Positions 7,815 to 31,758 of a DNA stretch of 64,000 nt are shown here, in pieces; within the stretch, counting starts at the first letter, position 1; each line of letters opens with the position of its first letter. The DNA is from Actinocorallia populi (lineage in GTDB: Bacteria > Actinomycetota > Actinomycetes > Streptosporangiales > Streptosporangiaceae), in assembly GCF_002995495.1 (NCBI RefSeq), contig NZ_PVZV01000006.1, positions 1 through 64,000 of the forward strand, read 5' to 3'. The notes beneath the pieces were generated by a model. It did no database searches. It saw nothing but the letters and a program-made list of their open reading frames with translations, and was not told the origin of the DNA. A program made the translations under genes and the position numbers.

Positions 7815-10800
7815 ATGACTCTCTCGTCTTCTGTCGTGTCCGTCGACGACGTCGTGGACCTGGTCGCGGGGGTCCTCGGGCTCCCGCGGGAGCAGGTGGA
7901 CCCCGACACCGCGCTGACCGTCCTCGGGCTGGAGTCCTTCACCGCCGTCCGGTTGCGCAGGCGGCTGCGCGACCTCGGCATGGACCTGCCCATGACCGCC
8001 TTCCTGGGGAGCGCGACGGCGCGCACGGTCGCGGCCGGCGTCGCCGATCCCGGCGGGGAGGCCGGCACGGGGGAGGGCCACCCGCTGACCCCGCTGCAGA
8101 CGGCCTACTGGATCGGCCGCGACCGCGCGTTCCCGCTCGGCGGGGTGGCGACCTTCTACTACCGGGAGTACGACCGGTCCGCGGCCGACCCCGAGGCCGA
8201 CCTCGCGGCGTTGGAGGCCGGCTGGAACCGGCTGGTCGCCCACCACCCCATGCTGCGCATGGTCGTCGACCGCGCGGGCGGGCAGCACGTCCTGCCGTCC
8301 GTCGAGGACTACCGCATCCGGGTCGAGGACCTGCGCGGCCCGGACGCGGACCGGGCCGAGCGGCGGCTCGCCGAGCTGCGGTACGAGCGCTCCCACCAGA
8401 TCAGGCCCGCCGACCGGTGGCCGCTGTTCGACATCACCGCGGCCTTCCTGCCCGGCGGCCGCACCAGGATCTTCCTCGGCGTCGACGTCCTGGCGCTCGA
8501 CCTGGCGGGCTGGATGCAGATCCTCGCCGAATGGGGCGCCGTGGTGGCCGACCCGGGCCTGGAACTGCCCGGCTCGCCGGTCTCCTTCCCCGAACTGGTC
8601 GCACGGCGCCGAGAGGACCCCGACGAGAGCCTCCGCAGGATCCGGGACGAGGAGTACTGGCGGGCACGGAACCTGCCCCCGGGCCCGGAGCTTCCCTGGA
8701 CCCGCGACCTGGCCGAGGTCCGCTCGCACCGTTTCACCCGCGCCTCCGCCGAACTGGAGGCCGCGGAGTGGGAGGCGCTGCGCGAGCGCGCGGCGCGTCG
8801 CGGGCTGAGCCCCACGGGCGTGCTGCTGGCCGCGTGCGGACTGGTGCTGTCCCGGTGGGGGGCGGGCGGGCCGTTCTGCCTCAACACGACGCTGTTCGAC
8901 CGGCCCGACGAGCCGGAGCTCGCCCATCTGGTCGGTGACTTCACCTCCACGGTGCTCGTCGAGATCCCGCGGCCCGACCTCAGGGAATGGGGCGGCTTCG
9001 GGGACTTCGCCGCCCGGGTCAACCGCCGCTTCTGGACCGACATGGAGCATCGCGCGGTCTCCGGCGTGGAGGTGCGCGGCGGCGGCGACCTCACCCCGGC
9101 CCACCCGGTGGTCTTCACCAGCGGCCTGGGACTGAGCGAGCCGGGCCGCGCCCCGGCGGACTGGCTGGGCGAGGAGGTCTACGGGATCTCCCAGACCCCC
9201 CAGGTGGCGCTCGACCACATCGTCCACGACGAAGGCGGACGGCTGCGCATCGCCTGGGACGCGGTCGAAGGGCTCCTGCCGGACGGGTTCGCCGAAGGCA
9301 TGCGCGACGCCCACCTGCGGCTGCTGCGCCGCCTGGCCGAGGGCGAGGAGGCCTGGAGCGATCCGGCGCTGGGCTGGGACCCGTCGTTCCTGGCGGAGGA
9401 GCCGCTGGAGCAGCGGCCCTTCGGCGACGCCGGGCCGCTGCTGGACGACCCGCTGCGCCGCGCCGCGCGCACGTGCGTGGACGGGCCCGCGCTGCTCGAC
9501 GCGCGAAGCGGCATCACCCACGGGGAACTGGCCGAGCGGACCGCCCGGATCGGCTCGGCCCTGGCGGCGTGCGGCCTGGGCCCCGGCGACCTCGTCGCGG
9601 TCGCCTTCGACAAGGGAGCCGAGCAGGTGACCGCCCTGCTCGGCGTCTGCGCGAGCGGCGCGGGATACGTGCCGGTCGAGCCGTCGTGGCCCGCCGACCG
9701 GATCGCCTCGGTGTGCGAGCAGGCCGCGATCGCCCACGCGGTCGTCCCCGACGGCGACACGACCGCCTGGCCCGCCGGGGTCACCGTCCACCGCCTCTCG
9801 CAGTGCCTGCGGGGCGGCGAGGCGCGACCGCGCCGCGCCGAGGCGGACGACCTGGCCTACGTCATCTTCACCTCCGGCTCCACCGGACGGCCCAAGGGCG
9901 TGGCCATCGAGCACCGGGCCGCCCGCACCACCATCGACGACCTGATCGACCGGTTCCCCGTCGGCCCGCAGGACCGCGTCCTCGGCCTGTCCGCCTTCAG
10001 CTTCGACCTGTCGGTGCACGACGTCTTCGGAGTCATGGGCACCGGCGCGGCGCTCGTGCTGCCCGACGCCGCCCGCCAGCGCGATCCCGGGCACTGGCTC
10101 GAACTGATGGAACGCCACCGGGTCACTGTCTGGAACACCGCGCCCGCCCTGATGGAGATGCTCGTCGAGTACGCCGAACTCGAACCCGAACGCACCCGCA
10201 GGGCGCTGGCCCCGCTGCGCGTGGTGTTCCTGTCGGCGGACTGGATCCCGGTGACGCTGCCCGACCGGGTGCGCGCCCTGGCGCCCGACGCGCAGATCAT
10301 CAGCCTCGGCGGGGCCACCGAGGCCTCGATCTGGTCGATCTGCTTCCCGATCGGCCACGTCCCGCCGTCGTGGCCGAGCATCCCCTACGGGCGGGCGCTG
10401 CGCGGCCAGTGCTTCCACATCCTCGACCCGCGGGGGCGTCCGTGCCCCGTCGGGGAGTCCGGCGAGCTGCACATCGGCGGTGACGGGCTGGCCCGCTGCT
10501 ACATCGGCGACGACCAGCAGACCCGCGAACGGTTCGTCACCGATTCCGTCCTGGACCGCAGGCTCTACCGGACCGGCGACCTGGGCCGCTGGCGCGCCGA
10601 CGGCACCATCGAGTTCCTGGGCCGCCTCGACCGCCAGGTGAAGATCCGCGGCCACCGCATCGAACTCGGCGAGGTGGAGTCCGCGCTCGACCGCACACCC
10701 GGCGTGCGCCACTCGGTGGCGCTGTCGATGCCCGGCCCCGACGACCGCCCCCGCCTGGTCGCCTTCCTCGTCGGCGACCCCGCCGCGCCGCCCACGGACG

Positions 10801-11720
10801 AGGACCTCGTGACCCGGCTGCGCGAACGGGTCCCCGACTCCATGGTCCCCAGCCGCTTCGTCCGCCTGGCCGACTTCCCCGTCACGGCCAACGGGAAGAT
10901 CGACTACAAGGCGCTCCCGAACCCCTACCGCAGGCGGGCGCCCTCGACACCCGCCCGGCCGGACATCCCCGCCCCGGCGGTCCCCGCACCGGAGACCGAG
11001 GCCGTGCCGGTCGCCGGGCCCTCCACCGAGGCCGAGCTGGCCCTCCTGATCCGGACGGCCGTGGAGCAGGGACTCGAGGTCACCCTGCGGATCACGGCAG
11101 GGGCACTGCCTCCCTCCCGGGCACTGACCACCGCGGGAGCCTGCGCGTCGGCACTGCGCGCCGCAGCCGCCCGCAGCGGCCTCTCCCTGGACGAGCGGCT
11201 GGCACCCGGCACGCTGATCGAGCTCACCACCGGTCCGGGAGCCGCGGCCCCGCCTGACCCCCTGCCGGACGAGGCGCTCGCCTGGTCTCCCGCTTCACGC
11301 ACCGCCGCCGAGCCGTCCGCGGACGAGGTCACCGTCCGCGCTCCGCGGCCCCCCGCACCGGCCGCGGAGCCGGCACGTCCGGACGCCGAGACGGAACGGA
11401 CGATCACGAAGGTGCTGAGCGAACTGCTCGCGGGAGCCCCGGTGGACGCCGAGACGCCCTTCTTCCGGCTGGGAGCGACCTCGCTGACCCTGGTGCGCGC
11501 CCACGCCCGGCTGGTGGAGCTGCTCGACCCGGAACTGGAGGTGGTGGACATGTTCAGCCATCCGACCGTCCGGCAACTGGCGACCCGCATCGCGGGCCGG
11601 AGGCGGCCCGCGCCCGAACCCCCTCCGGTCCCGGAGCCGCCCGCCGCGGAGTCCTCGGCCGAGGAACGCGCCCACCAGCGCCGGACGGCCCGCCGCAGGG
11701 CGGCGGAGGTGGCCGGATGA
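7815..11720 (+). CDS. NRPS: carrier-Cy-A-carrier (cysteine-type module)
   Basis: A 1301-residue synthetase. Domains: an N-terminal carrier (GLESF, Ser about 40), a heterocyclization domain about 90-510 with the DxxxxD motif DVLALD (about 223), an adenylation domain about 530-1030 (FTSGSTGRPKG about 684; TGDLGRW; NGKIDYKALPN), a Pro/Ala-rich linker, and a C-terminal carrier (LGATSL about 1218). The specificity residues I read are D-L-H-N-F-S-L-I-W, close to the cysteine code DLYNLSLIW. It should load Cys and form a thiazoline on whatever acyl group the first carrier bears. ATG 7815 is preferred over 7794 because AAGGGG precedes it. It overlaps the PKS start (ATGA). The layout matches the first half of yersiniabactin HMWP2. 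Confidence 0.93.
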   Translation: MTLSSSVVSVDDVVDLVAGVLGLPREQVDPDTALTVLGLESFTAVRLRRRLRDLGMDLPMTAFLGSATARTVAAGVADPGGEAGTGEGHPLTPLQTAYWIGRDRAFPLGGVATFYYREYDRSAADPEADLAALEAGWNRLVAHHPMLRMVVDRAGGQHVLPSVEDYRIRVEDLRGPDADRAERRLAELRYERSHQIRPADRWPLFDITAAFLPGGRTRIFLGVDVLALDLAGWMQILAEWGAVVADPGLELPGSPVSFPELVARRREDPDESLRRIRDEEYWRARNLPPGPELPWTRDLAEVRSHRFTRASAELEAAEWEALRERAARRGLSPTGVLLAACGLVLSRWGAGGPFCLNTTLFDRPDEPELAHLVGDFTSTVLVEIPRPDLREWGGFGDFAARVNRRFWTDMEHRAVSGVEVRGGGDLTPAHPVVFTSGLGLSEPGRAPADWLGEEVYGISQTPQVALDHIVHDEGGRLRIAWDAVEGLLPDGFAEGMRDAHLRLLRRLAEGEEAWSDPALGWDPSFLAEEPLEQRPFGDAGPLLDDPLRRAARTCVDGPALLDARSGITHGELAERTARIGSALAACGLGPGDLVAVAFDKGAEQVTALLGVCASGAGYVPVEPSWPADRIASVCEQAAIAHAVVPDGDTTAWPAGVTVHRLSQCLRGGEARPRRAEADDLAYVIFTSGSTGRPKGVAIEHRAARTTIDDLIDRFPVGPQDRVLGLSAFSFDLSVHDVFGVMGTGAALVLPDAARQRDPGHWLELMERHRVTVWNTAPALMEMLVEYAELEPERTRRALAPLRVVFLSADWIPVTLPDRVRALAPDAQIISLGGATEASIWSICFPIGHVPPSWPSIPYGRALRGQCFHILDPRGRPCPVGESGELHIGGDGLARCYIGDDQQTRERFVTDSVLDRRLYRTGDLGRWRADGTIEFLGRLDRQVKIRGHRIELGEVESALDRTPGVRHSVALSMPGPDDRPRLVAFLVGDPAAPPTDEDLVTRLRERVPDSMVPSRFVRLADFPVTANGKIDYKALPNPYRRRAPSTPARPDIPAPAVPAPETEAVPVAGPSTEAELALLIRTAVEQGLEVTLRITAGALPPSRALTTAGACASALRAAAARSGLSLDERLAPGTLIELTTGPGAAAPPDPLPDEALAWSPASRTAAEPSADEVTVRAPRPPAPAAEPARPDAETERTITKVLSELLAGAPVDAETPFFRLGATSLTLVRAHARLVELLDPELEVVDMFSHPTVRQLATRIAGRRRPAPEPPPVPEPPAAESSAEERAHQRRTARRRAAEVAG

Positions 11721-14700
11721 TCGCCGTCGTCGGACTCGCCTGCCGCTTCCCCGGAGCCGGGGACGCCGAGGCGTTCTGGAGGCTCCTGGCAGAAGAGCGC
11801 GAAGGACTCACCCGGCTGGGAGAAGAGGACCTGAAGGCCGCCGGGGCGCCCCGCAGGCTGCTGCGCACCCCGGGGTACGTGCCGGTCGCCGGGCTCATCG
11901 AAGGGCAGGATCTCTTCGACCCCGAACCGTTCGGCCTCCCCGACACCGAGGCGGCGCTCCTCGACCCCCAGCAGCGGCTGTTCCTGGAATGCGCCTGGCG
12001 GGCCCTGGAGGAGGCCGGTCACGGAGGCGGCAGGGGAGCCGGTTCGGTCGGGGTGTTCGCCGGCGCCGCGCAGAGCGCCTACCTGGCCACCAGCCTCACC
12101 GGGCGCTGGGATCCGACCGGCGGCGGCGCCGACCCGTTCGGCAGCCTGCAGACGGCCATCGCCACCCAGACCGACTACCTGCCGCTGCAGACCGCCTACC
12201 GGCTCGACCTCACCGGGCCCGCCGTCGCGGTGAACACCTCGTGCTCGACCTCCCTGGTGGCCGTCCACCTGGCCGCCCAGTCCCTGGAGACCGGCGAGTG
12301 CGACACCGCCCTGGCCGGAGGGGTGTCGCTGATCGTCCCCCAGGGGCGCGGCTACGTGGCCACCCCCGACGGCATCTACTCCGAGGACGGCAGGGTCAGG
12401 CCGTTCTCCGCGCGCGGCACGGGCGTCGTCTACACCCAGGGCGTCGGCGTCGTGGTGCTCCGCCGCCTCCAGGACGCCCTGGACGACGGCGACCCGATCC
12501 TCGCCGTCGTGCACGGTTCGGCGACCGGCAACGACGGCGCCGACAAGACCGGGTTCACCGCTCCGTCCGTCCGCGGCCAGGCCCGGGTCCTGGCCGAGGC
12601 GCTGGCGGTCGCCAGCGCCGAACCCGCACAGGTCGGCTACGTCGAGGCGCACGGCACCGGCACCCGGCTGGGCGACCCGATCGAGGTGGCGGCGCTGCGC
12701 CGCGTGTTCGGCGACACCGGTCCGGCCTGGTGCGGGCTCGGCTCGGTCAAGAGCAACATCGGCCACGCCAACTCCGCAGCCGGGATCGCCTCCTTCATCA
12801 AGACCGTCCTGGCCGTCCACCACCGCACGCTGCCCGCCTCGCTGCACGCCGAGCCGGTCAACGAACTGCTGGGCCTGGACGGTTCCCCCTTCGAGGTCGT
12901 CACCCGCACCCGCGCCTGGACGGGACCGGAACTGGCGGGCGTCAGCTCCTTCGGCATCGGCGGCACCAACGCCCACGTCGTCGTGGGTCCCGCGCCGCGG
13001 CGGCCGGACCCGGCCCCCGACCCGCGCCCCCACCCGGTGGTGCTGTCCGCGCACAGCGCGCGAGCACTGGAACGGACGGCCCTGGACCTGGCCGCCTGGG
13101 CCGACCGCACCCGGCCCGACACCGCGGACCTGGCCCACACCCTCCAGCAGGGCCGCCGCCACCACAGGCACCGGCTCGCCGTCGTGGCGCCCGACGGAGA
13201 CCTGGGCGCGGCGCTGCGCGGGGCCGCGGCCTCCGGGAAGCCGGTGGAGGAGCGGCCAAGGCTGGTCTTCGCCTTCCCAGGAGGCGGCAGCGCCCAGGCG
13301 GGAATGGGCGCGAGGCTGTACGAGGCCGAGCCGATGTACGCCGACCACGTCGACGAATGCGCCGAGCTCTTCGCCGAACACCTGGGCTTCGACCTGCGCG
13401 AGGTCATCCTAGGCGAGGCGGACGGCGTCCGCGGTCCCGTGCGCGGGCTGCCCGCCCTGTTCACGGTGGAGCTGGCCACCGCACGCCTCCTGGACGACTG
13501 GGGCGTGCGGCCCGACGCCGTCCTCGGCCACAGCCTCGGCGAGTACACAGCGGCCGTGCTCAGCGGGGGACTGCCGCTGAAGGACGCGGTCCGTCTCGTG
13601 TCCGTCCGCTCCGAGGCCATGGCCGAATCCGCCGGGGACGGCGCGATGCTGGCCGTCCCGCTCGGCGAGGATGACATCCGCGCCCTCCTGCGCGAGCATC
13701 CCGGACTCGACCTCGCGGCCGTCAACGCGCCGCACTCCTGTGTGGTCTCCGGACCGCGCGAGCCGATCACGGCCCTGGAACGGGTTCTGCGCGCGGCCGG
13801 GCACGAACCGTCCCTGCTGCGGTTCGACGGCGCCGCGCACTCCCGGCACGTCGAGGCCGCGCTGCCCCGGCTGCGAGCCGCGGCGGAAGGCCTGAGCCCC
13901 GCACCGCTGCGCGTCCCCGCCTTCAGCACCCTGACCGGCACGGCCGTGGACACCGAGTTCGGCCGAGCAGACCACTGGGTGCGGCAGCTACGCGAACCGG
14001 TGCGTTTCTCCCGAGCCCTCCAGGCGGCCGCCGGCACCGGCGCGCTCGTCGTCCAGATCGGACCCGGCTCCGCTCTGGCCTCCCTGGCCCGCGCCCACGG
14101 CCTGCCCGCGCTGACCACGCTGCCGTCCGAGCCGGGCGAGGACGACCTGGCGGCCCTCTACGAGACCGCCGGTCACCTGTGGGCCCGCGGGGTGGACGTC
14201 GACTTCCCCGCCATGCACCGGCCGGGTCGGCGTCGCCTGGCCTCTCCCGGCCTGGCCTTCCAACCGCGCCGTCTGTGGATCGACCCGCCCGAGGCCCCCG
14301 CGCACCGGGCAGACGAGCCCGACGAGGGCGAACCCCTGCAGATCCCGGTCTGGACCCAGTGCCCGCCGCTCGACCGGGACACCGTTCTCGACGGCCGCTG
14401 GCTGGTGGCCGGGACGGACGACGAGCTCCTGACGGCCCTGAGGGCGGCCGGAGCCGACGCCCACTCCCTGGACGCGGACGTCGAGTCCGGCGGCTGGACC
14501 GGAGTGGTGGTCCTCGCCGATCTCGACGAGCGGCGGCGGCACGACCCTGACGCGGTCACCGAAGGCGTCCTGCACCACGCCCGGCTCGCCGAACGCCTGT
14601 TCACCGGCACGGACACGCCCGAATTCCTCCTTCAGGTCACCCGCGGAGCCCACCGGGTGACCGGGACGGAACACCCCAATCCCGCGCTGGCCGCCCTGCA

Positions 14701-18088: not shown

Positions 18089-18110
18089 CCCCCCTGAGAG
18101 AACGGAATCC

Positions 18111-19619: not shown

Positions 19620-20542
19620 TCCGGTCCGTCCCGGCCGCGGCGGGCAGGGCACTGGCCCTGCTCGCCGCGACCTCCCTGATCGTCTTCTGGGCCACCGAGC
19701 TGCTGCCCTCCGACGCCGCCGAGTCCAAGGCCGCAGGGCGGGCCACCGGCGCGCAGCTCGCCGCGCTGCGCGCCGAGCTGGGACTCGACCGCCCGGCCTG
19801 GGAGCGCTACCTGTCCTGGGCCGGCGGGCTCGCACACGGCGACGCGGGCACCTCCCTGGTCACCGGCCGCCCGGTGGGGGAGATGCTCGCCGAGCGCCTG
19901 CCCGCCACCCTCACCCTGGCCGGATGCGCGCTCGCCGTGGCCGTCCCGCTCGCCCTCGTCCTGGCCTGGCGCGTCGGCGCCGCCCCGCACGGGCGGATCG
20001 CCGCGCTGACGGCCGTGGCCGCGGCGGTGCCGCAGCCGGTGTTCGCCGCCGCGCTCGTCGCGCTCTTCGCCGGAACCCTGCCCTGGCTGCCCCCCGTCTC
20101 GCTCCTGGCCCCCGACACCCCGCCTCTGGCGCAGCCGGAACTGCTCGTCCTGCCCGCGCTGGCCCTGGCCCTGCCCTCGGCGGCGTTCGGCGCGGGGATG
20201 CTGGGCGGCGCGGTCGCCGACACCCTGCGCCGTTCTTACGTCCGCGACGCCGCGGCCCGGGGCCTGCCGCCGGCCCGGGTGGCGCTGCGCCACGTGGCGC
20301 CCCTCCTGGCGGCCCCCGCCCTGCGGATCCTGGCGCTGCTGACCGGCGGCCTGCTGGCCTCCACCGCCGTCATCGAGGTGATGTTCGGCTACTCCGGACT
20401 CGGCGAACTGCTGGTCAGCGCGATCGGCACCCGCGACCTCCCGGTCGTCCAGGCCGTGGCGATGCTCACCGCGGCCACCGTCCTGTCCGGTCTCGCGACC
20501 GCCGACGTCCTGGCCGCCCGCCACCGGGAGGAGCCGTGCTGA
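19616..20542 (+). CDS. ABC importer permease, DppB/NikB family
   Basis: The 308-residue inner-membrane protein has the DppB/NikB layout: an N-terminal helix, an exposed LGLDRPAWERYLSWAGGLAHGD-like segment, then five further helices with the ATPase-docking EAA loop (DAAARGLPPARVALRHVAPL) and FGYSGLGELLVSAI, typical of this family. GTG 19616 overlaps the binding-protein stop by four bases. It pairs with the fused permease-ATPase encoded next. Confidence 0.9.
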   Translation: MIRSVPAAAGRALALLAATSLIVFWATELLPSDAAESKAAGRATGAQLAALRAELGLDRPAWERYLSWAGGLAHGDAGTSLVTGRPVGEMLAERLPATLTLAGCALAVAVPLALVLAWRVGAAPHGRIAALTAVAAAVPQPVFAAALVALFAGTLPWLPPVSLLAPDTPPLAQPELLVLPALALALPSAAFGAGMLGGAVADTLRRSYVRDAAARGLPPARVALRHVAPLLAAPALRILALLTGGLLASTAVIEVMFGYSGLGELLVSAIGTRDLPVVQAVAMLTAATVLSGLATADVLAARHREEPC

Positions 20543-22716: not shown

Positions 22717-25081
22717 ACTCACCGACGCCGCCGCCCGCCTGTCCGGCCACCCCTGGATCGCCGAGGCCCTCCCGGGAGCCGACGGCACGCTGCTCCTGCG
22801 CCCCGGCCCGTCGGCCCTGGCGGCGCGGCCCGTCCCGGGCGGGCTCGTCGCCGAGTACCTCGAGCACTGGGGCGAGGTGTACGACTGGACGTACACGCGA
22901 GGCGACGGAAGGCACGCCGAGGACCTTGACCTGTCGGGCTGGCGGGCCTCCGACACCGGGCAGCCGCTGCCGGTCGAGCACATGCGCGCATGGGTGGAGC
23001 ACACCGTCGACCTGGTGGCGGGGCTGCGTCCCCGCCGGATCCTGGAACTCGGCTGCGGCACGGGCCTGCTGGCGCACCGGTTGCGCGGGCGGGCGGAGGG
23101 CTACGTCGGCACGGACGTGTCCGGCACGGCGGTCGAGCGGCTGAGCGCCCAGGACCTGCCCGGCACGGCCTTCGTCCGGGCGGGCGCGCACGAGGCCGCC
23201 TCGCCGGAGGTCCGCGCGGCCATGGCCGGGCTGGGCTTCCCCGAGGGCAGGCCCGACTGCGTGGTGATCAACTCGGTGACCCAGTGCTTCCCGGGGGTCG
23301 CCTACCTGCGCGCGGTGCTGCACGACGCGATCGAACTGGTCGAGCCCGGCGGCTCGATCCTCGTCGGGGACGTACGGGACGCCCGGCTGCTCGACCACTT
23401 CGCCCGGTGGGCCGAGCACGGCGACCCCGAGGCCGCCGCGGAGCGGCGGGCCCGCGAGCCGGAGCTGCTCTTCGACCCGCCGCTGCTGGCCCGCCTGGCC
23501 CGCGAGAGCGGCCGGACGGTCCGCATGAGCGTCCATCCCAAGACGATGACGGCCGACACCGAGCTCACCCGCTACCGGTTCGACGCGGTGCTGAGGATCG
23601 ACTCACCATCACCGGAGGCCGTCCCCGTCGTGCCCTGGAGCGGTGAGAACGCGCTGAAGGAGCAACTCGCGGAGGGCCCCGTCCGCATCGGAGGCATCCC
23701 CAACGCCCTGCTGGCGCCCGGCCCGGACGCGGTGACCCCGCACCGGCTGCGCGACCTGGCCGCAGGCCGTGCCGCAGTGGTCGCCGACCCCGCCGATCCC
23801 GCCCGGCTCGCGCTGGTCTCACCCCCGGAAGCAGCACCCCGCCCCGTGGAGGAGTGCCCGGGATCGGGCACCGCCCACGACCCGCTGCCCGCGTTCGTGG
23901 AGCGCCGCCTGAGCGAGGTCGCACGCGCCGTGCTGCGCCGTTCGTTCCCGGTGGCCGTCCTTCCCTCCGGCCTGCCGGACCGGGCCGACGCCCTGGCGGA
24001 AGCCGCGGTCGGCCAGGAGCAGGCGAGGGAGCTGCCGGAGTTCCTGCGCCGCCTGGACGAAGCCGCCTTGGCAGCGATGGCGCTCACCCTGCGCCCGGCG
24101 GGCGAGGCGCGCTCCGAGGGCGAGGTCGCCGCGGCGCTGGGCGTCGCCGACCGGCACCGCTGGATCCTGCGGCGCTGGCTCGCCGTCCTGGCGGCGGAAG
24201 GCGAACCGGGCCCGGTCGCCACCACCGGCCTCGCCGAGGAAGGAGAACGCCTCGGCTATCCGGCCGAGACCACCCGGTTCATGCTGGCGGCGATGGCCCG
24301 GCTGCCCGAACTGCTGCGGGACGAGCTGACACTTCAGGCGCTGCTGTTCGAGGACCCGAAGACCGCCGACGGCGCCTACCGGGAGAACACCGTCAACCGG
24401 TACCTCAACGCCGGAGTCGCCGAGGTGATGCGCTGGGCCCGGGAGAAAACCCCGCAGACCCGGCCGCTGCGCGTCCTGGAACTGGGCGCGGGCGTCGGCG
24501 GCACCACCATGGACGCCTTGGACGCGCTGGCCGGAGAAGAAATCGATTACCACTTCACCGACGTGTCCCGCTATTTCCTGTCGCTGGGCCGTGAACGCTT
24601 CGGCCACCGGAAGGGGGTGCGGTTCGGGCTCTTCGACATCAACGAAGACCCGCTCGGGCAGGGCGTCCCACCCGGTTCCCTGGACGTGGTGCTGTCGGCG
24701 AACGTGCTGCACAACGCCCGCGACATCAGGGCGACCCTGTCGGGACTGAGGGAGCTGCTGGCGCCGGACGGGCTGTTCGTCTTCGTCGAGACGAGCCGGG
24801 AGCTGTACTCGATCCTGACCTCGATGCAGTTCCTCATGTCCGCCCCGCAGGGCCGCGAACGCCTGGACCCGGCCGACCCCAGGGCCGCCGACGACCGCGT
24901 CTTCCTCAGCCGCCGGGAATGGCGGGACGAACTGGAGCGGGCGGGCCTGAACCACTGGTTCACCCTCCCGCGACAGGACCGTCCGCTGTCGGCGACCGGC
25001 CTCCACCTCTTCGTCGCACGCCGCGCGCAGCCCGCCGAAGCGGAAGCGGACCACGGCCCGGCAGCGTCATCGCCGTCCTGA
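22700..25081 (+). CDS. stand-alone tandem SAM methyltransferase (MT-MT)
   Basis: A 793-residue protein with two unrelated-looking class I methyltransferase domains. The first (about 50-320) has an EYLEHWGEVYDWTY entry motif and LELGCGTGLL about 114, as in methyltransferases embedded in NRPS adenylation domains. The second (about 420-780) has LELGAGVGGTT about 592 and SANVLHNARDI, like the C-methyltransferases of HMWP1-type synthetases. Here they are detached and must act in trans on carrier-bound thiazoline or ketide intermediates. ATG 22700 with GGAG upstream is chosen; it overlaps the previous gene by 17 bases. It is the last gene of the rightward operon, before a strong terminator. Confidence 0.85.
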   Translation: MFTHAELTDAAARLSGHPWIAEALPGADGTLLLRPGPSALAARPVPGGLVAEYLEHWGEVYDWTYTRGDGRHAEDLDLSGWRASDTGQPLPVEHMRAWVEHTVDLVAGLRPRRILELGCGTGLLAHRLRGRAEGYVGTDVSGTAVERLSAQDLPGTAFVRAGAHEAASPEVRAAMAGLGFPEGRPDCVVINSVTQCFPGVAYLRAVLHDAIELVEPGGSILVGDVRDARLLDHFARWAEHGDPEAAAERRAREPELLFDPPLLARLARESGRTVRMSVHPKTMTADTELTRYRFDAVLRIDSPSPEAVPVVPWSGENALKEQLAEGPVRIGGIPNALLAPGPDAVTPHRLRDLAAGRAAVVADPADPARLALVSPPEAAPRPVEECPGSGTAHDPLPAFVERRLSEVARAVLRRSFPVAVLPSGLPDRADALAEAAVGQEQARELPEFLRRLDEAALAAMALTLRPAGEARSEGEVAAALGVADRHRWILRRWLAVLAAEGEPGPVATTGLAEEGERLGYPAETTRFMLAAMARLPELLRDELTLQALLFEDPKTADGAYRENTVNRYLNAGVAEVMRWAREKTPQTRPLRVLELGAGVGGTTMDALDALAGEEIDYHFTDVSRYFLSLGRERFGHRKGVRFGLFDINEDPLGQGVPPGSLDVVLSANVLHNARDIRATLSGLRELLAPDGLFVFVETSRELYSILTSMQFLMSAPQGRERLDPADPRAADDRVFLSRREWRDELERAGLNHWFTLPRQDRPLSATGLHLFVARRAQPAEAEADHGPAASSPS

Positions 25082-25179: not shown

Positions 25180-26100
25180 TCAGATCTCGCCCAGGTCGGA
25201 TCGGAAGAGGTCGCCCTCCATCCAGACGGCGGCGCGGACGCCGTCGGCGGCTCCCAGCGAGACCAGGGTGACCGCGTCGGGGACGGCCGGGAGCTTGGCG
25301 GTGTCTCCGGCGGCCGCCACCCCCGGCACCGTGGTCTGCTGCAGTTCGTCGACCCGCACGGTGCCGTCGGGCAGGATCTCGCAGCCCAGTCCGGCGGCGA
25401 GCGAGGCGTGCTGGCGGGTGGGGGCGCGGTGGTAGACCGCCTCGCGGGCCAGGACCTCGCCGTCGGCGAAGTGCACCTCCAGCGCGCCGGGCTCGCCGGT
25501 CAGCCGGGCTATCGGCGTGGAGACGACCCGGACGCCGCGCTCGCCGAGCTTCTTGGCGACCCCGTCGGCCAGGTCGAGGGGACCGTCGGTGCACAGCACC
25601 ACGTCGTCGCTGAACCGGTCGGCGACGTAGAGGGCGAGCATGGCCTCGGCGGGCTCGCGGGTGATCACCGCGAGGGTCTTGCCGGTGGTCTCCCAGCCGT
25701 GGCAGAACGGGCAGTGGAAGACGCCGCGGCCGAACCGCTCGGGCAGCCCCTCGATCCGGTAGGGCTCGTCGACCTGGCCGGTGGCCAGCACCAGCCGCCG
25801 CGCCCGCTCGACCGTCCCGTCGGCCAGTTCGACCGCGAAGTCCTCCTTGGCTCCGCGCGCGGTCACCACGCTGCCCGCGCGGACCTCCACCGTGGGGTAG
25901 GCGGCCAGCTCGGCGCGGCCCAGCGCCAGGAGCTCCGAAGGCGGGAACCCGTCCCGGCTCAGGTACATGTGCATCTCGTCCGCCGGGGCGTTGCGCACCC
26001 GCCCGCCGTCGACGACCAGCACCCTGCGGCGCTGCCGCCCGAACACCAGGGCGGCGCTGAGCCCGGCGGGCCCTCCGCCGACCACGATCACGTCGTACAT
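25180..26100 (-). CDS. thioredoxin-reductase-like flavoprotein (GliT/HlmI type)
   Basis: The 306-residue protein opens with the FAD motif VIVVGGGPAGLSAAL and carries the redox pair CPFCHGWE at about residue 135, plus a C-terminal FAD segment VAAAGDT. The second nucleotide motif (GGGxSA in thioredoxin reductases) is replaced by VITREPAEAML, so NADPH use is doubtful. Dithiol oxidases of gliotoxin and holomycin pathways have the same layout. ATG 26100 is chosen because AGAAGGGG sits six bases upstream; ATG 26106 is an alternative. It lies between the two arms of the metallophore cluster, divergent from the thioesterase by 43 bases. Thiol/disulfide or thiazoline redox tailoring is inferred. Confidence 0.85.
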   Translation of the reverse strand: MYDVIVVGGGPAGLSAALVFGRQRRRVLVVDGGRVRNAPADEMHMYLSRDGFPPSELLALGRAELAAYPTVEVRAGSVVTARGAKEDFAVELADGTVERARRLVLATGQVDEPYRIEGLPERFGRGVFHCPFCHGWETTGKTLAVITREPAEAMLALYVADRFSDDVVLCTDGPLDLADGVAKKLGERGVRVVSTPIARLTGEPGALEVHFADGEVLAREAVYHRAPTRQHASLAAGLGCEILPDGTVRVDELQQTTVPGVAAAGDTAKLPAVPDAVTLVSLGAADGVRAAVWMEGDLFRSDLGEI

Positions 26101-26143
26101 CCTCATCCCCTTCTGTTCACTCCGCGATTGACGGGAGCCTGTC

Positions 26144-26914
26144 TTGTCCGCTGAATTCGGTCCTTGGCTGCGCTGCTTCACCCCCAGGCCGCGGGCACGG
26201 CTGCGGCTGGTGTGCCTGCCGCACGGCGGCGGCGGCGCGGCCGCCTACGCGGGCTGGGGCGACCTGGCCCCCGACGTCGAGGTGCTGGCCGTCTGCTACC
26301 CCGGCCGGGAGGACCGGCTCGGCGAGCCCTTCCCGGCCGACCTGCACACGCTCGTCGCCGAACTGGCGGACGCGCTGAAGCCGCTGGCCGACCGGCCGTA
26401 CGCGCTGTTCGGGCACAGCATGGGCGCGACGATCGCCTACGAGCTGGCCCGCGTCCTCCCCCGGCCCGAGCACCTGGTGGCGTCGGGCCGGGAGGCCCCG
26501 CAGGACGAGCGGGGCGGGACCGTCCACCTGCGCGACGAGGCGGGCCTGCTGGAGGAGGTCTCCCGGCTGGGCGGCACCGCGTCCGAGGTGCTCGCCGACC
26601 CCGCGCTGCGCACGATGATCCTGCGCTGCCTGCGCGAGGACTACCGGCTCATCGAGACCTACCGGCCCCGCCAGGCGCCGCCGCTGGACTGCCCCGTCTC
26701 GGTGTTCGTCGGCGACGCGGACCCCGACCTGACCGCCGCGCAGGCGGCCAGGTGGCGGCGCGTCACCTCCGGGAGGACCCGGCTGAGGGTCTTCCCCGGC
26801 GACCACTTCTACCTGGTGCCGCAACGCCGCGCCGTCCTGGCCGCGCTGCGCGAGGCGCTGGCCCGGCCTCAGGACCGGCGCCAGGCCTGGACGCCCTCGG
26901 CCGGGTCCTCCTGA
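26144..26914 (+). CDS. type II thioesterase
   Basis: A 256-residue alpha/beta hydrolase with the type II thioesterase signature: PWLRCFTPRPRARLRLVCLP at the start, oxyanion PHGGGGA, nucleophile GHSMGA about 91, and catalytic His in GDHFYL about 222. Such enzymes strip wrong or stalled acyl groups from carrier domains. TTG 26144 gives the standard family N-terminus and has GGGAG upstream; no ATG or GTG fits better. Its last 46 bases overlap the 3' end of the convergent methyltransferase gene. In a system where one adenylation domain must charge several carriers, an editing enzyme makes sense. Confidence 0.9.
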   Translation: MSAEFGPWLRCFTPRPRARLRLVCLPHGGGGAAAYAGWGDLAPDVEVLAVCYPGREDRLGEPFPADLHTLVAELADALKPLADRPYALFGHSMGATIAYELARVLPRPEHLVASGREAPQDERGGTVHLRDEAGLLEEVSRLGGTASEVLADPALRTMILRCLREDYRLIETYRPRQAPPLDCPVSVFVGDADPDLTAAQAARWRRVTSGRTRLRVFPGDHFYLVPQRRAVLAALREALARPQDRRQAWTPSAGSS

Positions 26915-27633
26915 CGGGTGAACCCGGCCCCGGTCAGCTCGGCGGCCAGCCGCTCGTCGGAGACCACGTGGCAGTCGAACTCCGCGGTCTCCGACAGCAG
27001 CAGCTCCTCGCCCTCCCAGGTGCGGTAGGTCATGATCCAGCGGATGAGGTCCTCGCCGGCCACCTCGGCGCGCGAGACGGTGTCGTAGCGGCGGCGCCCC
27101 AGGGTGCGGCCGGGGACCTCCGAGGCGGGCACGGCCACGGCGGTCTGCGGGTACTGCGTCTCCAGGAGCAGCAGCCCTCCGGGGCGCAGGGCCTCGCCCC
27201 ACTTGCGCCACAGCTTCGCCCTCTCCCGAGGGCCGAAGTGCATGACGAGGTTGAACAGGACCACCGCGTCGCACGGGGTGTCCAGCTCGGCCTCCAGCGC
27301 GCCTTCGGGCAGCACGGTGACGCGCGCGGCGTCCCCGGGCAGCGCGGCCAGGCGGGTGGCGAGGGCGGCGCGCATGATCCGGGCCGGTTCGACGGCGAAG
27401 ACCTCCGCCTCGGAGCCGAGCAGCCGGGCGATCACCTCGGTGAACTGGCCGGTGCCCGGACCGAGTTCCGCGACTGCGCGGGCACCCGGCAGGACCGCGC
27501 GCAGCGCCCCCGCCAGGGTGTCGCGGACCACCGACGGGAAGATCAGGTCGTAGTAGGGGGCGTTGACCACGTACCCCGGGTCCTCCTGGGCGCGGGAGGC
27601 CTCGAAGGCGGGGGCGGTCGTGGTGTCGGTCAT
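26869..27633 (-). CDS. class I SAM-dependent methyltransferase
   Basis: A 254-residue methyltransferase with motif I VAELGPGTGQF at about residue 54, motif II region DAVVLFNLVMHFG and a GGLLLLETQYP strand, followed by a C-terminal substrate cap. It is the distal gene of the leftward metallophore operon, 15 bases after the reductase. It overlaps the thioesterase gene tail-to-tail. Its target (N, O or C) cannot be told from sequence; small-molecule methylation of the product is the likely job. Confidence 0.82.
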   Translation of the reverse strand: MTDTTTAPAFEASRAQEDPGYVVNAPYYDLIFPSVVRDTLAGALRAVLPGARAVAELGPGTGQFTEVIARLLGSEAEVFAVEPARIMRAALATRLAALPGDAARVTVLPEGALEAELDTPCDAVVLFNLVMHFGPRERAKLWRKWGEALRPGGLLLLETQYPQTAVAVPASEVPGRTLGRRRYDTVSRAEVAGEDLIRWIMTYRTWEGEELLLSETAEFDCHVVSDERLAAELTGAGFTRQEDPAEGVQAWRRS

Positions 27634-27648: not shown

Positions 27649-28692
27649 TCAGAGCAGTTCGACATCGGTCACGAGGGGGTCGCCGGACAGGCGGTCGAGC
27701 ACGGCCGCCGGGTCCAGGACGTCGGCGGCCAGATGGGCGCCGGGTTTGACGCGGCCGTGCAGGATCTCCTCGGCGGCGATCGCGGCGACGACCCCGCTCA
27801 GCGCGTAGGAGTCGGGGGTGCGCAGGGTCAGGCGCCGGGGTCCGGGTGACGCCGGGGCGCGGGGCACGGCCTGGAACAGCAGCGTGTAGTACGGGCCGGT
27901 GGCCGCCAGGTCGTCCTCAGCGGCCGCGACCACGGCGGGCACGTGCCGTTCCAGCGGCCCGCCGTCGGCCCAGGCCTCGGCGAGGGCCCGGGGGATGCTC
28001 TCGGTGACGTAGACGGTGTAGTTGCGCAGCTCGCCGACCTGCAGCTCGGTGGCCAGCGCGTCCATCTCGGCCGACAGGAACGGCCAGGCGTGCACCTTCC
28101 CCCGGAAGCCGGGGAGGGCGACCTTCTGCAGCGGGGCCAGCGGCATGGTCTCCTTCCCGCGCCGCCCGACGAGCGGGGTCCCGAAGCCCGGCCCCCGGGT
28201 GAGCAGGGCGTCGACCGCCGACAACTCCCCGATCCTGGCGGCACCGCCGACATAGCAGTCCAGCCGCGTCAGCGGCCGGGTGGCCAGCAGCCTGGGCAGC
28301 AGCCCCGACAGGCCGGGCATCAGCCCTGCGGAGAAGACCGAGACCGACTCGCCGAGATCGACCACGGGTTCCCCGCGCAATGCTTCGAGCGCCGCGAAGT
28401 CGCCCGCGGCATCGACGTAGTGTGCTCCGGCCGCCGCCGCGGCGCGGGCCACCAGATCGAGCACCTGATAGGAGGGCCCCGCGCAGTTGACGACGACCTC
28501 GCACCCGTCACAGAACGCCGCGAGGCTCTCGGGGTCGTGCAGGTCGACCCGCACGGGGCGGGCCGTCTCCGTTGGGCAGACCGCCGCGGCACGCTCCAGG
28601 TCCCGTCCCCCGACGCGCAGCTCGTACCGGCCGGCGAGCCTGTCCACGACGACCCGTCCCACGGTCCCCGCGCCGCCGAGCACCCCGATCAC
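27649..28692 (-). CDS. saccharopine-dehydrogenase-like NAD(P) reductase
   Basis: A 347-residue oxidoreductase with an N-terminal Rossmann motif GVLGGAGTVGRVVVDRL and the saccharopine-dehydrogenase family run VVNCAGPSYQVLDLVARAA...HYVDAAGD. GTG 28692 overlaps the NRPS stop (GTGA), setting the start; longer readings are NRPS shadows. In yersiniabactin and pyochelin clusters the equivalent slot is held by a thiazoline reductase (YbtU/PchG) of a different family. Here it may reduce a thiazoline to a thiazolidine or an imine in trans. The opine-metallophore dehydrogenases are another precedent for reductive C-N chemistry. Both assignments are inference. Confidence 0.78.
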   Translation of the reverse strand: MIGVLGGAGTVGRVVVDRLAGRYELRVGGRDLERAAAVCPTETARPVRVDLHDPESLAAFCDGCEVVVNCAGPSYQVLDLVARAAAAAGAHYVDAAGDFAALEALRGEPVVDLGESVSVFSAGLMPGLSGLLPRLLATRPLTRLDCYVGGAARIGELSAVDALLTRGPGFGTPLVGRRGKETMPLAPLQKVALPGFRGKVHAWPFLSAEMDALATELQVGELRNYTVYVTESIPRALAEAWADGGPLERHVPAVVAAAEDDLAATGPYYTLLFQAVPRAPASPGPRRLTLRTPDSYALSGVVAAIAAEEILHGRVKPGAHLAADVLDPAAVLDRLSGDPLVTDVELL

Positions 28693-30641
28693 AGGGCGGG
28701 GGCTTCCGCGCGGGCGCGGACGGCGGCGGCCAGTCCTGCGACGGTCGGCGCGTCCAGGAACTCCCGGACGGTGGGCACGGCTCCGGTGTGCCTGGCCAGG
28801 CGGGCGAGGGCGCGGACCGCCAGGAGGGAGTCCCCGCCAAGGGTGAAGAACCCGGCGGCGCGGTCCAGGACGGGCACGCCCAGCAGCTCCTCCCACAGGT
28901 CGCAGATCTGCTGCTCGAGCTCGTCGGCGGGCGGGCCGGAGGCCGGGGCGTCGGCGCTTTCGGGCAGGCGGGCGAGGGTGAGCGCGGTGCTCTCCGGGGC
29001 GTCCGAGGTCATGGGGAGTTCGGGGACCAGGTCCCAGCCGGGCCCGTCGGCCAGGGACTCGACCAGGGCGACCAGATCGGCGAAGGCGGCGTCCACCTGG
29101 TCGCTCTCGAAGAGCTCCTCCACCAGGGAGAAGACGACGGCCATGCGGTCGCGCAGCTCGTAGAACCGCACCTCCAAGGCCACCTGCGGGGTGCGGAGCT
29201 GGTGGTGGAAGTCGGCGAAGTCGACGTCGCCCAGCGGACCCGCCGACTCGGTGTGCGCCGCGCCGACAGCGGCGTCCATGCCCAGGGTGCTCTGGAAGAC
29301 GACGGGCCCGACGGGGCGGGTGGTGCCGCGGTCGCGGGCCAGCTCCCGGGAGACCTCCACGCCCGAGACGAGGTTGTGGGAGGCGCTGTCGGTGAGGTCG
29401 CGGTGCACGCCTCGGGCCAGCTCGGCGAACGTACGCCCCTCGGGGAGGTCGACGGGCAGCAGCATCGTCGAGGCGAACGCGCCGATGACCCGGTGGATGT
29501 CGGGATGCAGCGGCAGGCGGTTGAGCTGGAGGGAGTTCAGCAGCATCCGGCGGTGGCCCGCCCAGCGGGCCAGGGCGACGCCGAAGGCGGTGAGCATGGC
29601 CGCGGAAGGAGTGACGTCGTGGGCGGCGCACCGGCCGCGCAGCGCCTCCCACCGTTCGGGGGACAGGTGGGTCTCGCGGGTGCCCATCAGCGTCGGGCGC
29701 ACGTCCCGGGGATCGGCGCGCAGCGGCAGGGCGGGGGGAGTGGGGGCGTTCCGGAGGCGGTCGCGCCACCAGTCGCGGTCGGCGGTCCACGGTTCGGTGT
29801 CCCGCAACCGGCCCAGGGCGGTCACGTAGTCCCCGAAGTCGATCTCAAGCGGGGCCAGGACGGCGTTCCAGTCGGCGGCCAGGGCGAGCAGCTCGCGGTT
29901 GAGCAGGGTGGCCGACCATCCGTCCAGGGTGAGCAGGTTCATCGCGGTGTGCAGCCGGGCGCGTCCCCCGGGCAGGAGGCTCAGCCGCACGTCCAGGCCA
30001 GGTCCGGACATCGGGTTCGGGCCGGTCGTGCTCATCTCATGCCGGACGCCCGCCAGGACGTCTTCGATCTCCTGCTCCTCGGCCTTGCGCAGGTCGTGGA
30101 TCTGCGGCTCGGGAATCGCGCCCGGGGCGTCGGGGGGCAGCACGTGCTGGGCTCCCTCGGGGGTGACCCGGGCGCGCAGTGCGGGCTGGTGCAGGGCCAG
30201 CCGCTGGAGGGCGTCGGCCAGCGCCTCGGGAGCCTCCTCGCCGTCGACGCCGGTGAGCCCGACGTCGCCGTAGAAGTGCGCGGAGTCGTAGGACAGCTCC
30301 CAGCCGTCGTGCTGCCCGACGAAGTAGCCCTGCTGGAGGGACATGAGCGGGAACGGCGCGAGCGGGTCCGGGCGGCGTTCGACCTCCACCGGCAGCGCCC
30401 GCGCCGCGCCGCCGGACTCCGCGCGCCAGGCGACCAGGTCGGCCAGCCCGTCCAGGGTGATCTCGACCGTCACGTCCGAGAGGGCCAGCTCCACCGCCAG
30501 CCGCTTGCGGACCAGGGCCGACATCCGCACCGCCAGCACCGAGTCGCCGCCCAGGCGCAGGAAGCTGGTGTCGCGGGGGATGGTCGCGGGATCGAGGTCG
30601 AGGAGCTCGCCCCAGATCTCGCTCAGCTCGGTCTGTGTCAT
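28689..30641 (-). CDS. NRPS: carrier-Cy(degenerate)-carrier
   Basis: A 650-residue protein with no adenylation domain. Carrier 1 has LGGDSVLAV (Ser about 33), then a heterocyclization/condensation domain about 75-510, then carrier 2 with LGGDSLLAV (about 603). The Cy motif DxxxxD reads NLLTLD; the usual FTS of PVVFTS is PVVFQS; and the conserved LDH after PQ is PQVALEV. All three catalytic signatures kept by the other two Cy domains of the cluster are therefore altered. It may only condense, or serve as a scaffold. Its carriers must be charged in trans, presumably by the A domain at 9.4-10.9 kb, and could supply the carrier missing from the PKS. Clean start at ATG 30641. Confidence 0.88.
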   Translation of the reverse strand: MTQTELSEIWGELLDLDPATIPRDTSFLRLGGDSVLAVRMSALVRKRLAVELALSDVTVEITLDGLADLVAWRAESGGAARALPVEVERRPDPLAPFPLMSLQQGYFVGQHDGWELSYDSAHFYGDVGLTGVDGEEAPEALADALQRLALHQPALRARVTPEGAQHVLPPDAPGAIPEPQIHDLRKAEEQEIEDVLAGVRHEMSTTGPNPMSGPGLDVRLSLLPGGRARLHTAMNLLTLDGWSATLLNRELLALAADWNAVLAPLEIDFGDYVTALGRLRDTEPWTADRDWWRDRLRNAPTPPALPLRADPRDVRPTLMGTRETHLSPERWEALRGRCAAHDVTPSAAMLTAFGVALARWAGHRRMLLNSLQLNRLPLHPDIHRVIGAFASTMLLPVDLPEGRTFAELARGVHRDLTDSASHNLVSGVEVSRELARDRGTTRPVGPVVFQSTLGMDAAVGAAHTESAGPLGDVDFADFHHQLRTPQVALEVRFYELRDRMAVVFSLVEELFESDQVDAAFADLVALVESLADGPGWDLVPELPMTSDAPESTALTLARLPESADAPASGPPADELEQQICDLWEELLGVPVLDRAAGFFTLGGDSLLAVRALARLARHTGAVPTVREFLDAPTVAGLAAAVRARAEAPAL

Positions 30642-30657
30642 CAGATACTCCGTTTCG

Positions 30658-31758
30658 TCAGCGGTGTGCCAGGAGCAGGAACTGGGAGAAGGCCGCCAGC
30701 GGGTGGCCGGGGTGCGGCAGGTCCAGCGCGGGCCGCAACCCCGCCGCCGTGAGGGCGGCGAGCCATTCCTCCCGGGTGAGGTAGGTGCGGTGGGTCCCCG
30801 CCCGCTGGTCGCGGCGCTCCGTCCGCCCCGACAGCAGGAACGGCATGGAGGCCAGCGACTGGTGGTGCTCGTGCCCGGTTTCGACGAGCAGCAGCGCGCC
30901 TCCGGGGGCGAGGAGGTCCCTGATCCGGCCCAGGAGGTCTCCCACGTGGGAGGCGTTGTGCGCGGCGTTCACCGCGACCACCAGGTCGAACGGGTCCGCG
31001 CCGCACCGCGCGGCGAGGTCGGCGTCGAGGTCCACGACCTCGTAGCGCAGGAACGGGTGCGGGAAGCGGGTGCGCGCGTGCTCCAGGAAGAACGGCGACA
31101 GGTCGGTGAACAGGTACTCCGAGGTGTGGCCGTCCAGGACCGGCAGGAGGTCGGCGGTCAGGGAACCCGTTCCCGCGCCGAGTTCCAGGATCCGGGTGCG
31201 GCCGAGGTCGCGGACGGTGCGCGCGGCGGCGGCGTTGAGGTAGAGGTTGATGAGGTTGTCCCGGTAGGCCGCCTCGGCCACGCCCAGATCCCCATCGGGG
31301 AAGAGCAGCGCCTGCGCGCTCACCTCGTCGCGCAGCAGCCCGGACAAGTGCCGCAGCGAGTCCAGCAGGTAGCGGGTGAGTTCCGGCGGATATCCCAAGG
31401 TGCGGCGCGCTTCGTCAATGGCTTTCCGCGCTTCCACCAGTTCCGCCCTGCGGTGGCGGCGCGGTGCGAGCCCCTCGCCGGCGAGTGCGGCGAGCCAGTG
31501 GCCGGGAATCCACGCGTGCCGGGGCGCCGTCTGGAGGATCCGGGCGGCTTCCGCGGCGTCGCAGGATCTTGGGAGCCGTTCGCCCAGGTGGGCGGCGATG
31601 CCCGTCAGCACCGCCAGGTCGAGCCGTCTGACCTGCTCGGGGATCCGGTCGAGCGGAACGCCGCCGAGGGCGGCGAGTCCGGCGCCGTGCGCGGCGCGGG
31701 CCGTCGCGTGCCCGGTTTCGGCGTGCGGCGCGGTCACCGTCCGGGCCCGCTCGTCCAC
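30658..31758 (-). CDS. C-methyltransferase-like protein
   Basis: A 366-residue protein resembling the second domain of the tandem methyltransferase at 22.7-25.1 kb. It has a helical N-terminal part (RRTLGYPPELTRYLLDSLRHL), then ALLFPDGDLGVAEAAYRDN, motif I ILELGAGTGSLT and VAVNAAHNASHV. These match trans versions of NRPS/PKS-embedded methyltransferases. GTG 31758 is the first gene start of the leftward operon, 100 bases from the Zur box at 31858. It probably methylates a carrier-bound ketide or thiazoline carbon. Confidence 0.82.
   Translation of the reverse strand: MDERARTVTAPHAETGHATARAAHGAGLAALGGVPLDRIPEQVRRLDLAVLTGIAAHLGERLPRSCDAAEAARILQTAPRHAWIPGHWLAALAGEGLAPRRHRRAELVEARKAIDEARRTLGYPPELTRYLLDSLRHLSGLLRDEVSAQALLFPDGDLGVAEAAYRDNLINLYLNAAAARTVRDLGRTRILELGAGTGSLTADLLPVLDGHTSEYLFTDLSPFFLEHARTRFPHPFLRYEVVDLDADLAARCGADPFDLVVAVNAAHNASHVGDLLGRIRDLLAPGGALLLVETGHEHHQSLASMPFLLSGRTERRDQRAGTHRTYLTREEWLAALTAAGLRPALDLPHPGHPLAAFSQFLLLAHR

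Follow-up and report, generated by a model that had tools for sequence, protein, structure and literature searches.

The window analysed here, the first 64,000 nucleotides of contig 6 in the 8.25-Mb genome of Actinocorallia populi, holds a biosynthetic core (7815-31758) that we interpret, with a probability of roughly 60%, as a Zur-repressed non-ribosomal peptide synthetase-polyketide synthase (NRPS-PKS) line making and recovering a thiazoline-ketide metallophore for zinc, its chemistry being predicted from domain content. These coordinates had been put forward in an initial annotation of the DNA and match the core, and surroundings linked to zinc extend from about 5219 to 43543. Pfam and NCBIfam profile matches on the window proteins bore out the domain list of that annotation, in which carrier (CP), cyclization (Cy), adenylation (A), ketosynthase (KS), acyltransferase (AT), ketoreductase (KR) and thioesterase (TE) domains are arranged as CP-Cy-A-CP, CP-Cy-CP and KS-AT-KR-CP-Cy-TE, accompanied by three methyltransferase (MT) proteins, a reductase and a type II TE, the last identified from its sequence and a GHSMG motif. 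The distribution of modules over divergent operons was likewise found as described, with NRPS1 and PKS on the forward strand and NRPS2, the reductase SacDH, MT254 and MT366 on the reverse strand. Two further items inside these coordinates are missing from that list, an importer of the Opp/NikA ABC type (18111-22716) and a FAD protein resembling DepH (25180-26106). The same genes recur in the regions of 17 relatives, so the grouping goes beyond chance. As judged from these genes the product is quite probably a metallophore, with zinc as its likely main metal, and because a Zur-box-bearing NRPS-PKS is combined with one cysteine-type A and three Cy domains, a thiazoline/thiazolidine-ketide chelator is probable, as had been anticipated.

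Zur boxes and predicted zinc control

Four Zur boxes lie in the window (Table 1), out of seven sites with at most one mismatch in the whole genome, where the reversed pattern gives none. The box agrees with the Zur motif of Streptomyces coelicolor, tGaNNatSatNNtCa (PMC5472717; papers are cited throughout by PMC number), and one of the sites outside the window, on contig C2, precedes a ZnuA gene followed by genes for an ABC ATPase, a permease and a Fur-family protein. Over the window and the fetched regions of the 17 relatives, sites with at most two mismatches number 59 at 53 places, where first-order shuffles predict 0.33; some of the sites stand away from any cluster gene. Where the 5' end of NRPS1 is usable, 14 of 15 loci have a box at most 400 bp from that gene, as does the CobW-like gene in 4/4 and NRPS2 in 2/18 (counts out of 18 comprise the window and 17 relatives, those out of 17 for PKS the window and 16 relatives), and at this distance there is none for the internal genes encoding the solute-binding protein (SBP; 0/16), PKS (0/15), SacDH (0/18) and the double MT (0/18). 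Some counts weigh against this picture: the NRPS1 box of relative G039 is 451 bp away, beyond the 400-bp limit, boxes within the limit accompany the FAD gene in only 6/18, MT366 in 6/13 and MT254 in 6/16, and the window has no box before the FAD gene or MT254. Taking these DNA sites together, we predict that the cluster is very probably repressed by zinc through Zur.

Alternative ribosomal genes, whose products L33, L31, S14 and L32 contain no cysteine and L28 a single one, sit between the first two window boxes; Zur targets in S. coelicolor include cysteine-less rpmG/B and rpmF paralogues (PMC5472717). Elsewhere in the A. populi genome, the other two of the seven sites precede genes for an ArsP_1 permease (G000:C3:350548) and a ParA-like ATPase (G000:C4:627650), and one of the Zur sites outside the window lies, by reading, near CbiM/CbiQ-like genes.

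Three Cy domains with one ketide are typical of iron chelators, and this together with the FecBCD-like genes at 36147-39923 would suit an iron siderophore, or an antibiotic, whose genes merely adjoin zinc genes. We consider this highly improbable, since an iron-box pattern allowed up to five mismatches had no site in the window and three weak ones in two relatives, outside core genes, on which ground iron regulation was rejected, and since Zur boxes stand before NRPS1 even where the fetched region of a relative showed no ribosomal gene. What does weigh against zinc as the metal is that binding of iron and copper has been reported for thiazoline chelators (PMC9396620, PMC12210259).

The assembly line and its predicted product

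The cluster has a single A domain, three Cy domains and one KS-AT-KR module (Pfam and hidden Markov model (HMM) scan). The specificity residues of the A domain, read by eye, are D-L-H-N-F-S-L-I in the window and D-L-Y-N-[FL]-S-L-I in distant relatives, and those of tabulated cysteine A domains are D-L-[YF]-N-[LM]-S-[LM]-[IV] (PMC3672683), a match from which the lone A domain is predicted to be cysteine-specific. The first Asp of the DxxxxD motif is retained in Cy1 (15/15) and Cy3 (17/17) and replaced by N or S in Cy2 (18/18). Mutation of the corresponding Asp in Cy4 of PxbG cut one product by half (PMC9396620), which suggests that Cy2 may have reduced activity and not none at all. No MT match was obtained within NRPS1, PKS or NRPS2 in the Pfam scan, which agrees with the annotation of the methyltransferases as free-standing. 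No carrier was detected between Cy3 and TE in any of the 17 PKS proteins by HMM scan, the acyl carrier (ACP) being their sole carrier.

In the assembly that we favour, Cy1 would couple a starter on CP1 to cysteine on CP2, giving the first thiazoline, and KS-AT-KR-ACP would extend the chain by one reduced ketide to be methylated by free-standing C-methyltransferases (cMTs). Next the chain would move, by way of Cy3, onto a cysteine that NRPS2, a separate protein, carries on its CP3; Cy2 would append the final cysteine on CP4, and the PKS-terminal TE would free the chain from CP4. The lone A domain would load every cysteine carrier, some in trans, and the predicted product is a starter-thiazoline-ketide-bis-thiazol(id)ine. 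SacDH might reduce one thiazoline to a thiazolidine, which an excised MT might N-methylate, the DepH-like oxidase might close or guard thiols, and the NikA/Opp-type importer would re-import the loaded complex.

Module order

With NRPS2 acting between Cy3 and TE, each Cy domain has a donor and an acceptor and all five carriers are used once. A second Cy after the post-PKS Cy and before TE is a trait of piscibactin and photoxenobactin, which would be reproduced here only via NRPS2 in trans; photoxenobactin PxbG has the order Cy-T-Cy-A-T-TE downstream of the PKS module, and its partner A domain in the PxbG/PxbF system is thought to serve four carriers in trans (PMC9396620). Four reference loci were compared, from Serratia symbiotica, Rhizobium rhizoryzae, Nonomuraea and Streptomyces clavuligerus (Klebsiella and Salmonella irp2 records among tblastn plasmid matches fall outside this set). 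The S. clavuligerus homologues read as A-CP-Cy-CP-TE in a single chain with a Cy remnant ahead, and their identities of 55% for A, 38% for CP-Cy-CP, 41% for TE and 41% for a free MT are each the best of the four; for KS, AT and the joined Cy-A, the nearest of the four is the Nonomuraea locus. The S. clavuligerus Cy is the sister of Cy2 (100/99, Cy tree), and its post-A carrier groups with CP3 at 95/79, below the starred level of the carrier tree.

The rival order is that of yersiniabactin with its parts scattered, in which Cy1 would act onto CP3, Cy2 onto CP2 facing the KS, and Cy3, after the PKS, onto CP4 before TE, giving a starter-thiazoline-thiazolidine-ketide-thiazoline. It too uses all five carriers once, the MT and reductase complement parallels that of yersiniabactin, and in the carrier tree CP2 joins the last, KS-facing carriers of two HMWP2-like proteins (96/91), a grouping that counts for the favoured order as well. 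We nevertheless find this order rather unlikely, since Cy1 and Cy2 would each have to skip the carrier attached to it, S. clavuligerus has CP-Cy-CP-TE as one uninterrupted stretch, and Cy3 does not join the HMWP1-type Cy3 of two yersiniabactin-type reference loci, one of them a long branch (Cy tree).

For the order with NRPS2 in trans we would give even odds. Several points speak against it. Bootstrap support in the carrier tree is unsettled (10 of 35 inner branches starred), CP4 is not placed in it and scores best with a Nonomuraea carrier, CP3 scores 112 pairwise with the ACP of its own cluster against 110 with the S. clavuligerus carrier, the grouping of Cy3 with Cy1 is supported only at 84/91 in the Cy tree, and the TE would have to act on the carrier of a different protein.

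Priming of the first carrier

None of the 15 aligned sequences has lost the CP1 serine, so this carrier is probably loaded with something. It occupies the place of the PchE aryl carrier, since the alignment of NRPS1 to PchE in the match table begins at residue 13, which would suit an aryl or acyl starter loaded by an unlinked ligase and a classic phenolate or lipid-capped thiazoline chelator. Many ligase-family matches were found in the A. populi genome, all under the cut-off, and a protein resembling the 2,3-dihydroxybenzoate (DHB)-AMP ligase at E 1e-90 is encoded elsewhere in the genome in 9 of the 17 relatives, one exceeding the cut-off. Against this starter, the best whole-genome scores in A. 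populi were 201 bits (cut-off 724) for a DHB/salicyl-AMP ligase and 107 bits (cut-off 325) for a salicylate synthase, 8 of the 17 cluster-bearing relatives have no ligase match at E 1e-90, and no ligase or other starter gene is present at the other three Zur sites of the genome. Nor did the neighbourhood yield a conserved starter enzyme: among 192 unassigned open reading frames (ORFs) within 12 kb of the cores, only two families recur in at least three genomes, named by reading as FAD hydroxylase-like (nine genomes, by single linkage, with the member in G015 distant and differently positioned) and MFS-like (three). Other A-domain NRPS genes lie nearby in relatives G058 and G130. We regard an aryl or acyl starter as quite possible, at rather less than even odds.

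Cysteine is the simplest option for a starter on CP1, because no ligase exceeds the cut-off, the CP1 serine is kept and the only A domain is of the cysteine type; we consider it possible, though less likely than not.

The FAD hydroxylase-like gene is found upstream of MT366 in eight relatives (G039, at C1:484507-485805, G025, G045, G058, G086, G155, G173 and G215). In seven of them MT366 has no close box and the gene comes immediately after a Zur box, separating it from MT366; in the eighth, G058, a CobW-like gene intervenes as well. Its absence from the window makes product variants among the relatives likely.

Tailoring enzymes and thiols

The three MT proteins comprise four MT domains in total. 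The N-terminal half of the double MT resembles an NRPS methyltransferase chain (5wmm), which we take to be an A-embedded methyltransferase, and the C-terminal half the CurJ methyltransferase, a PKS cMT. The reductase belongs to Sacchrp_dh_NADP, and a thiazolinyl imine reductase of the Gfo/Idh type was not encountered, NF006073 at E 0.001 being the only such match. Its AlphaFold2 model (mean confidence, pLDDT, 89) is nearest in fold to lysine, carboxyspermidine and saccharopine dehydrogenases, with no thiazolinyl reductase among the best 50 fold matches. Sorangibactin depends on SrbE, a member of this Pfam family, and coelibactin clusters also carry a saccharopine-type oxidoreductase (PMC10127202). 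SacDH is a candidate thiazoline reductase.

The six closest solved chains of the FAD protein include DepH, GliT and 4ntd, presumably HlmI, along with uncharacterised oxidoreductases, two of them of unknown function, and its CP[FY]C motif is conserved in 18/18. The type II TE motif GHSMG is kept in 10/10. The dithiols gliotoxin and holomycin chelate zinc (PMC10500201). These genes could also be read as those of a thiol zincophore without a dedicated starter: the A domain would charge CP1 with cysteine too, so that a cysteine with its amine and thiol free would start the molecule, the excised CP-Cy-CP would act in trans, and the DepH-like oxidase would toggle a zinc-binding thiol and an exportable disulfide. 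The replaced Asp of Cy2 may leave an additional uncyclised thiol. We view this version as unlikely.

Conservation across relatives

The double MT served as a marker gene. At E 1e-40 it is matched in 108 of 297 genomes of the order, mostly by one half only, and both halves lie close together in at least 29, the A. populi genome included; the cluster itself was examined in fetched regions of 17 of the at least 28 others. NRPS2, SacDH, the FAD gene and the double MT are present in all 17 (tblastn and ORF reading). PKS is found in 16, the contig of G173 ending there, and NRPS1 in 15, contigs ending in G173 and G045, and in G188 the copy is a partial one at the edge of its contig. Of the importer genes, those for SBP and the first permease were located in 15 relatives, those for the fused ATPases in 16; SBP and permease of G173 would lie beyond its contig end, and G031 has no importer gene at all, a point against the proposed system. 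MT366 is found in 14/17, an MT254-like protein in 15/17 (eight at 33-41% identity, some displaced) and the type II TE in 9/17. Twelve of the 17 keep the gene order of the window, some with single genes absent, displaced or past the end of a contig; in the other five, which are more distant, the MT366-NRPS2-SacDH block stands on the opposite side of NRPS1. Frame breaks occur in some orthologs in the assemblies of relatives.

A scan of the genome collection with PKS returned three loci, among them an Actinomadura kijaniata PKS at 68% identity and one in Rhodospirillaceae. NRPS2 at E 1e-70 matched only the A. populi genome in a 396-genome sample of the phylum, with three candidates scored per genome, a setting that S. 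clavuligerus-like relatives may escape; on this count the cluster looks concentrated in its order.

Transport genes and neighbourhood

The SBP matches the CntA model weakly (59.6 bits, cut-off 800), which weighs against the zincophore reading, and import of the staphylopine type was rejected on this score. A Zur-regulated pyochelin system carries cobalt in Pseudomonas aeruginosa (PMC11481552), a point against zinc that suggests an alternative in which a zinc-starved cell imports cobalt as a substitute metal. The NikA-like importer, the Zur site near CbiM/CbiQ-like genes and the neighbouring heavy-metal P-type ATPase would fit such a cargo. The SPC and HEGS motifs of this ATPase are, we assume, suited to cobalt or zinc alike. 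The ATPase stands outside the conserved core, however, being found in only two relatives' regions, in one at 30% identity (a 67% homologue adjoins the cluster in G241), and nothing further points to cobalt specifically, so that we think this cargo improbable.

Several genes around the core (Table 1) deserve mention in their own right. The CobW-like gene is followed immediately by a phosphonate-type ABC transporter (2509-5123), and the two may share a Zur-controlled operon. A second copy of the SCO5389 family (PF20704) lies at 32115-32501, the first being at C2:268476; a role as a zinc-independent paralogue was rejected, as both copies retain all three cysteines. CydD and CydC are thiol reductant exporter families, and the CydDC-like pair at 40122-43543, with the weak Zur-like sites next to it, is a possible exporter of a thiol chelator. 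Further downstream, a BtrH_N/DUF4872 protein (45071-46060) has a PAS histidine kinase (43627-44919) as its neighbour and seems to have no connection with the cluster, and a protein with an Mrr-type endonuclease domain (47217-47930) matches the ZorD C-terminus weakly.

Table 1. Coordinates of the core genes, Zur boxes and zinc-linked neighbours in the window
Feature	Position	Strand	Basis and remarks
CobW/Mrf-like GTPase	5219..6391	-	Pfam CobW_C and cobW; NF047431 below cut-off; divergent from ribosomal genes
Zur box	6410..6426	.	0 mismatches to 15-base core TGAWAAYNRTTWTCA; 20 bp upstream of GTPase, between GTPase and ribosomal genes
Alternative ribosomal proteins L33, L31, L28, S14, L32	6463..7588	+	All five over Pfam cut-off
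Zur box	7750..7766	.	Upstream of NRPS1
NRPS1, CP1-Cy1-A(Cys)-CP2	7815..11720	+	Pfam, HMM scan; start 7794 or 7815; A specificity predicted
PKS, KS-AT-KR-ACP-Cy3-TE	11717..18088	+	Pfam; no carrier separating Cy3 and TE
Solute-binding protein, NikA/Opp type, SBP_bac_5	18111..19619	+	Pfam, NCBIfam
ABC permease, NikB/Opp type	19616..20542	+	Pfam, NCBIfam
Fused permease and two ABC ATPases	20539..22716	+	Pfam on frame 19924-22716; start by inspection
Double methyltransferase	22625..25081	+	Two MT domains; Pfam, matches to 5wmm and CurJ
FAD dithiol-oxidase homologue, CPFC	25180..26106	-	Alternative start 26181
Type II thioesterase	26210..26914	+	Translation, GHSMG motif; assigned outside Pfam scan
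Methyltransferase MT254	26869..27633	-	Pfam
Saccharopine-dehydrogenase-like reductase SacDH	27649..28692	-	Sacchrp_dh_NADP PF03435; candidate thiazoline reductase
NRPS2, CP3-Cy2-CP4	28689..30641	-	Pfam; same layout 18/18 (window and 17 relatives)
Methyltransferase MT366	30658..31758	-	Pfam
Zur box	31857..31873	.	100 bp upstream of MT366
Zur box	32021..32037	.	Perfect; 78 bp upstream of second SCO5389-family gene
Heavy-metal P-type ATPase (possible part)	33638..35623	-	TIGR01525 over cut-off; SPC and HEGS motifs
FecB/FecCD-type ABC importer (possible part)	36147..39923	-	Pfam, NCBIfam
Two overlapping weak Zur-like sites	40021..40041	.	Both carry 2 mismatches; importer genes on one side, exporter genes on the other
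ABC exporter pair, CydDC-like (possible part)	40122..43543	+	CydD and CydC are the nearest families; neither reaches its cut-off

Significance and comparison with known systems

To our knowledge, zincophores of NRPS origin are few. Coelibactin, an actinobacterial example, had by 2023 still resisted isolation (PMC10127202), and culture of cluster-bearing strains under zinc limitation could yield a first isolated member. Roughly a tenth of the genomes sampled in the order carry the marker gene, and the Zur boxes should ease induction. The missing and relocated parts make the exact product hard to guess and easy to test, and they raise questions of enzymology, such as a Cy joined to a TE without a carrier and the priming of a first carrier without an encoded ligase. 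If thiols are the ligands, disulfide-forming oxidases would be linked to metal acquisition. No record of the cluster was noticed in searches of the open-access literature, a scope that excludes most subscription journals. From its genes and boxes it is likely an uncharacterised type of Zur-box-controlled NRPS-PKS metallophore cluster, with zinc as the likely cargo and cobalt as a possible one.

The description of the cluster as yersiniabactin-like stands for its one cysteine-type A domain, three Cy domains and one KS-AT-KR module, and fails for the salicylate enzymes, the Gfo/Idh reductase and the carrier before TE, none of which was found. A split-up yersiniabactin it does not appear to be, as its Cy3 does not group with that of the two yersiniabactin-type loci, one of them a long branch, and the nearest of the four references are the S. 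clavuligerus and Nonomuraea loci. Shared with yersiniabactin, piscibactin and photoxenobactin are a cysteine A domain serving several carriers, at least three Cy domains, one KS-AT-KR module, a TE and a type II TE (PMC9396620). In contrast to the yersiniabactin group, the A. populi cluster lacks salicylate enzymes and a carrier before TE, and has free-standing MTs, a CP-Cy-CP as a protein of its own, a saccharopine-type reductase, Zur boxes, a dithiol-oxidase homologue and a NikA/Opp importer; unlike piscibactin and photoxenobactin, neither a salicylate synthase nor a ligase (PxbJ) exceeds the cut-off in its genome.

The S. clavuligerus pSCL4 locus (L105) shares a homologous A, CP-Cy-CP, TE and free MT, but consists of only two genes, its first Cy is a remnant, and homologues of the PKS, importer, reductase and oxidase were not found in the 37.8 kb fetched. 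In that locus the A-CP-Cy-CP-TE protein and the free MT (15757-22313) lie near a squalene-hopene-cyclase-like sequence, and the A-domain code, by eye, equals the BacA cysteine code at eight positions. The FAD protein is close to the structures of the dithiol oxidases DepH, HlmI and GliT and keeps their CPxC motif in 18/18, whereas those enzymes serve disulfide natural products and the family includes proteins of unknown function.

As in the zincophores staphylopine and pseudopaline, the importer is of the NikA/Opp family and control is predicted to be by Zur; unlike in these, the CntA model scores far below its cut-off and no opine enzymes are among the scanned core proteins. Zur boxes before the operons recall coelibactin, for which Zur control is reported (PMC5472717), and no coelibactin-type P450 resembling CYP105N1 was present among the Pfam-scanned proteins of 7794-31758. 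The saccharopine-type oxidoreductase is common to coelibactin and sorangibactin, the latter also having separate MT genes (PMC10127202), and going by their descriptions it is the PKS module that sets the A. populi cluster apart from both.

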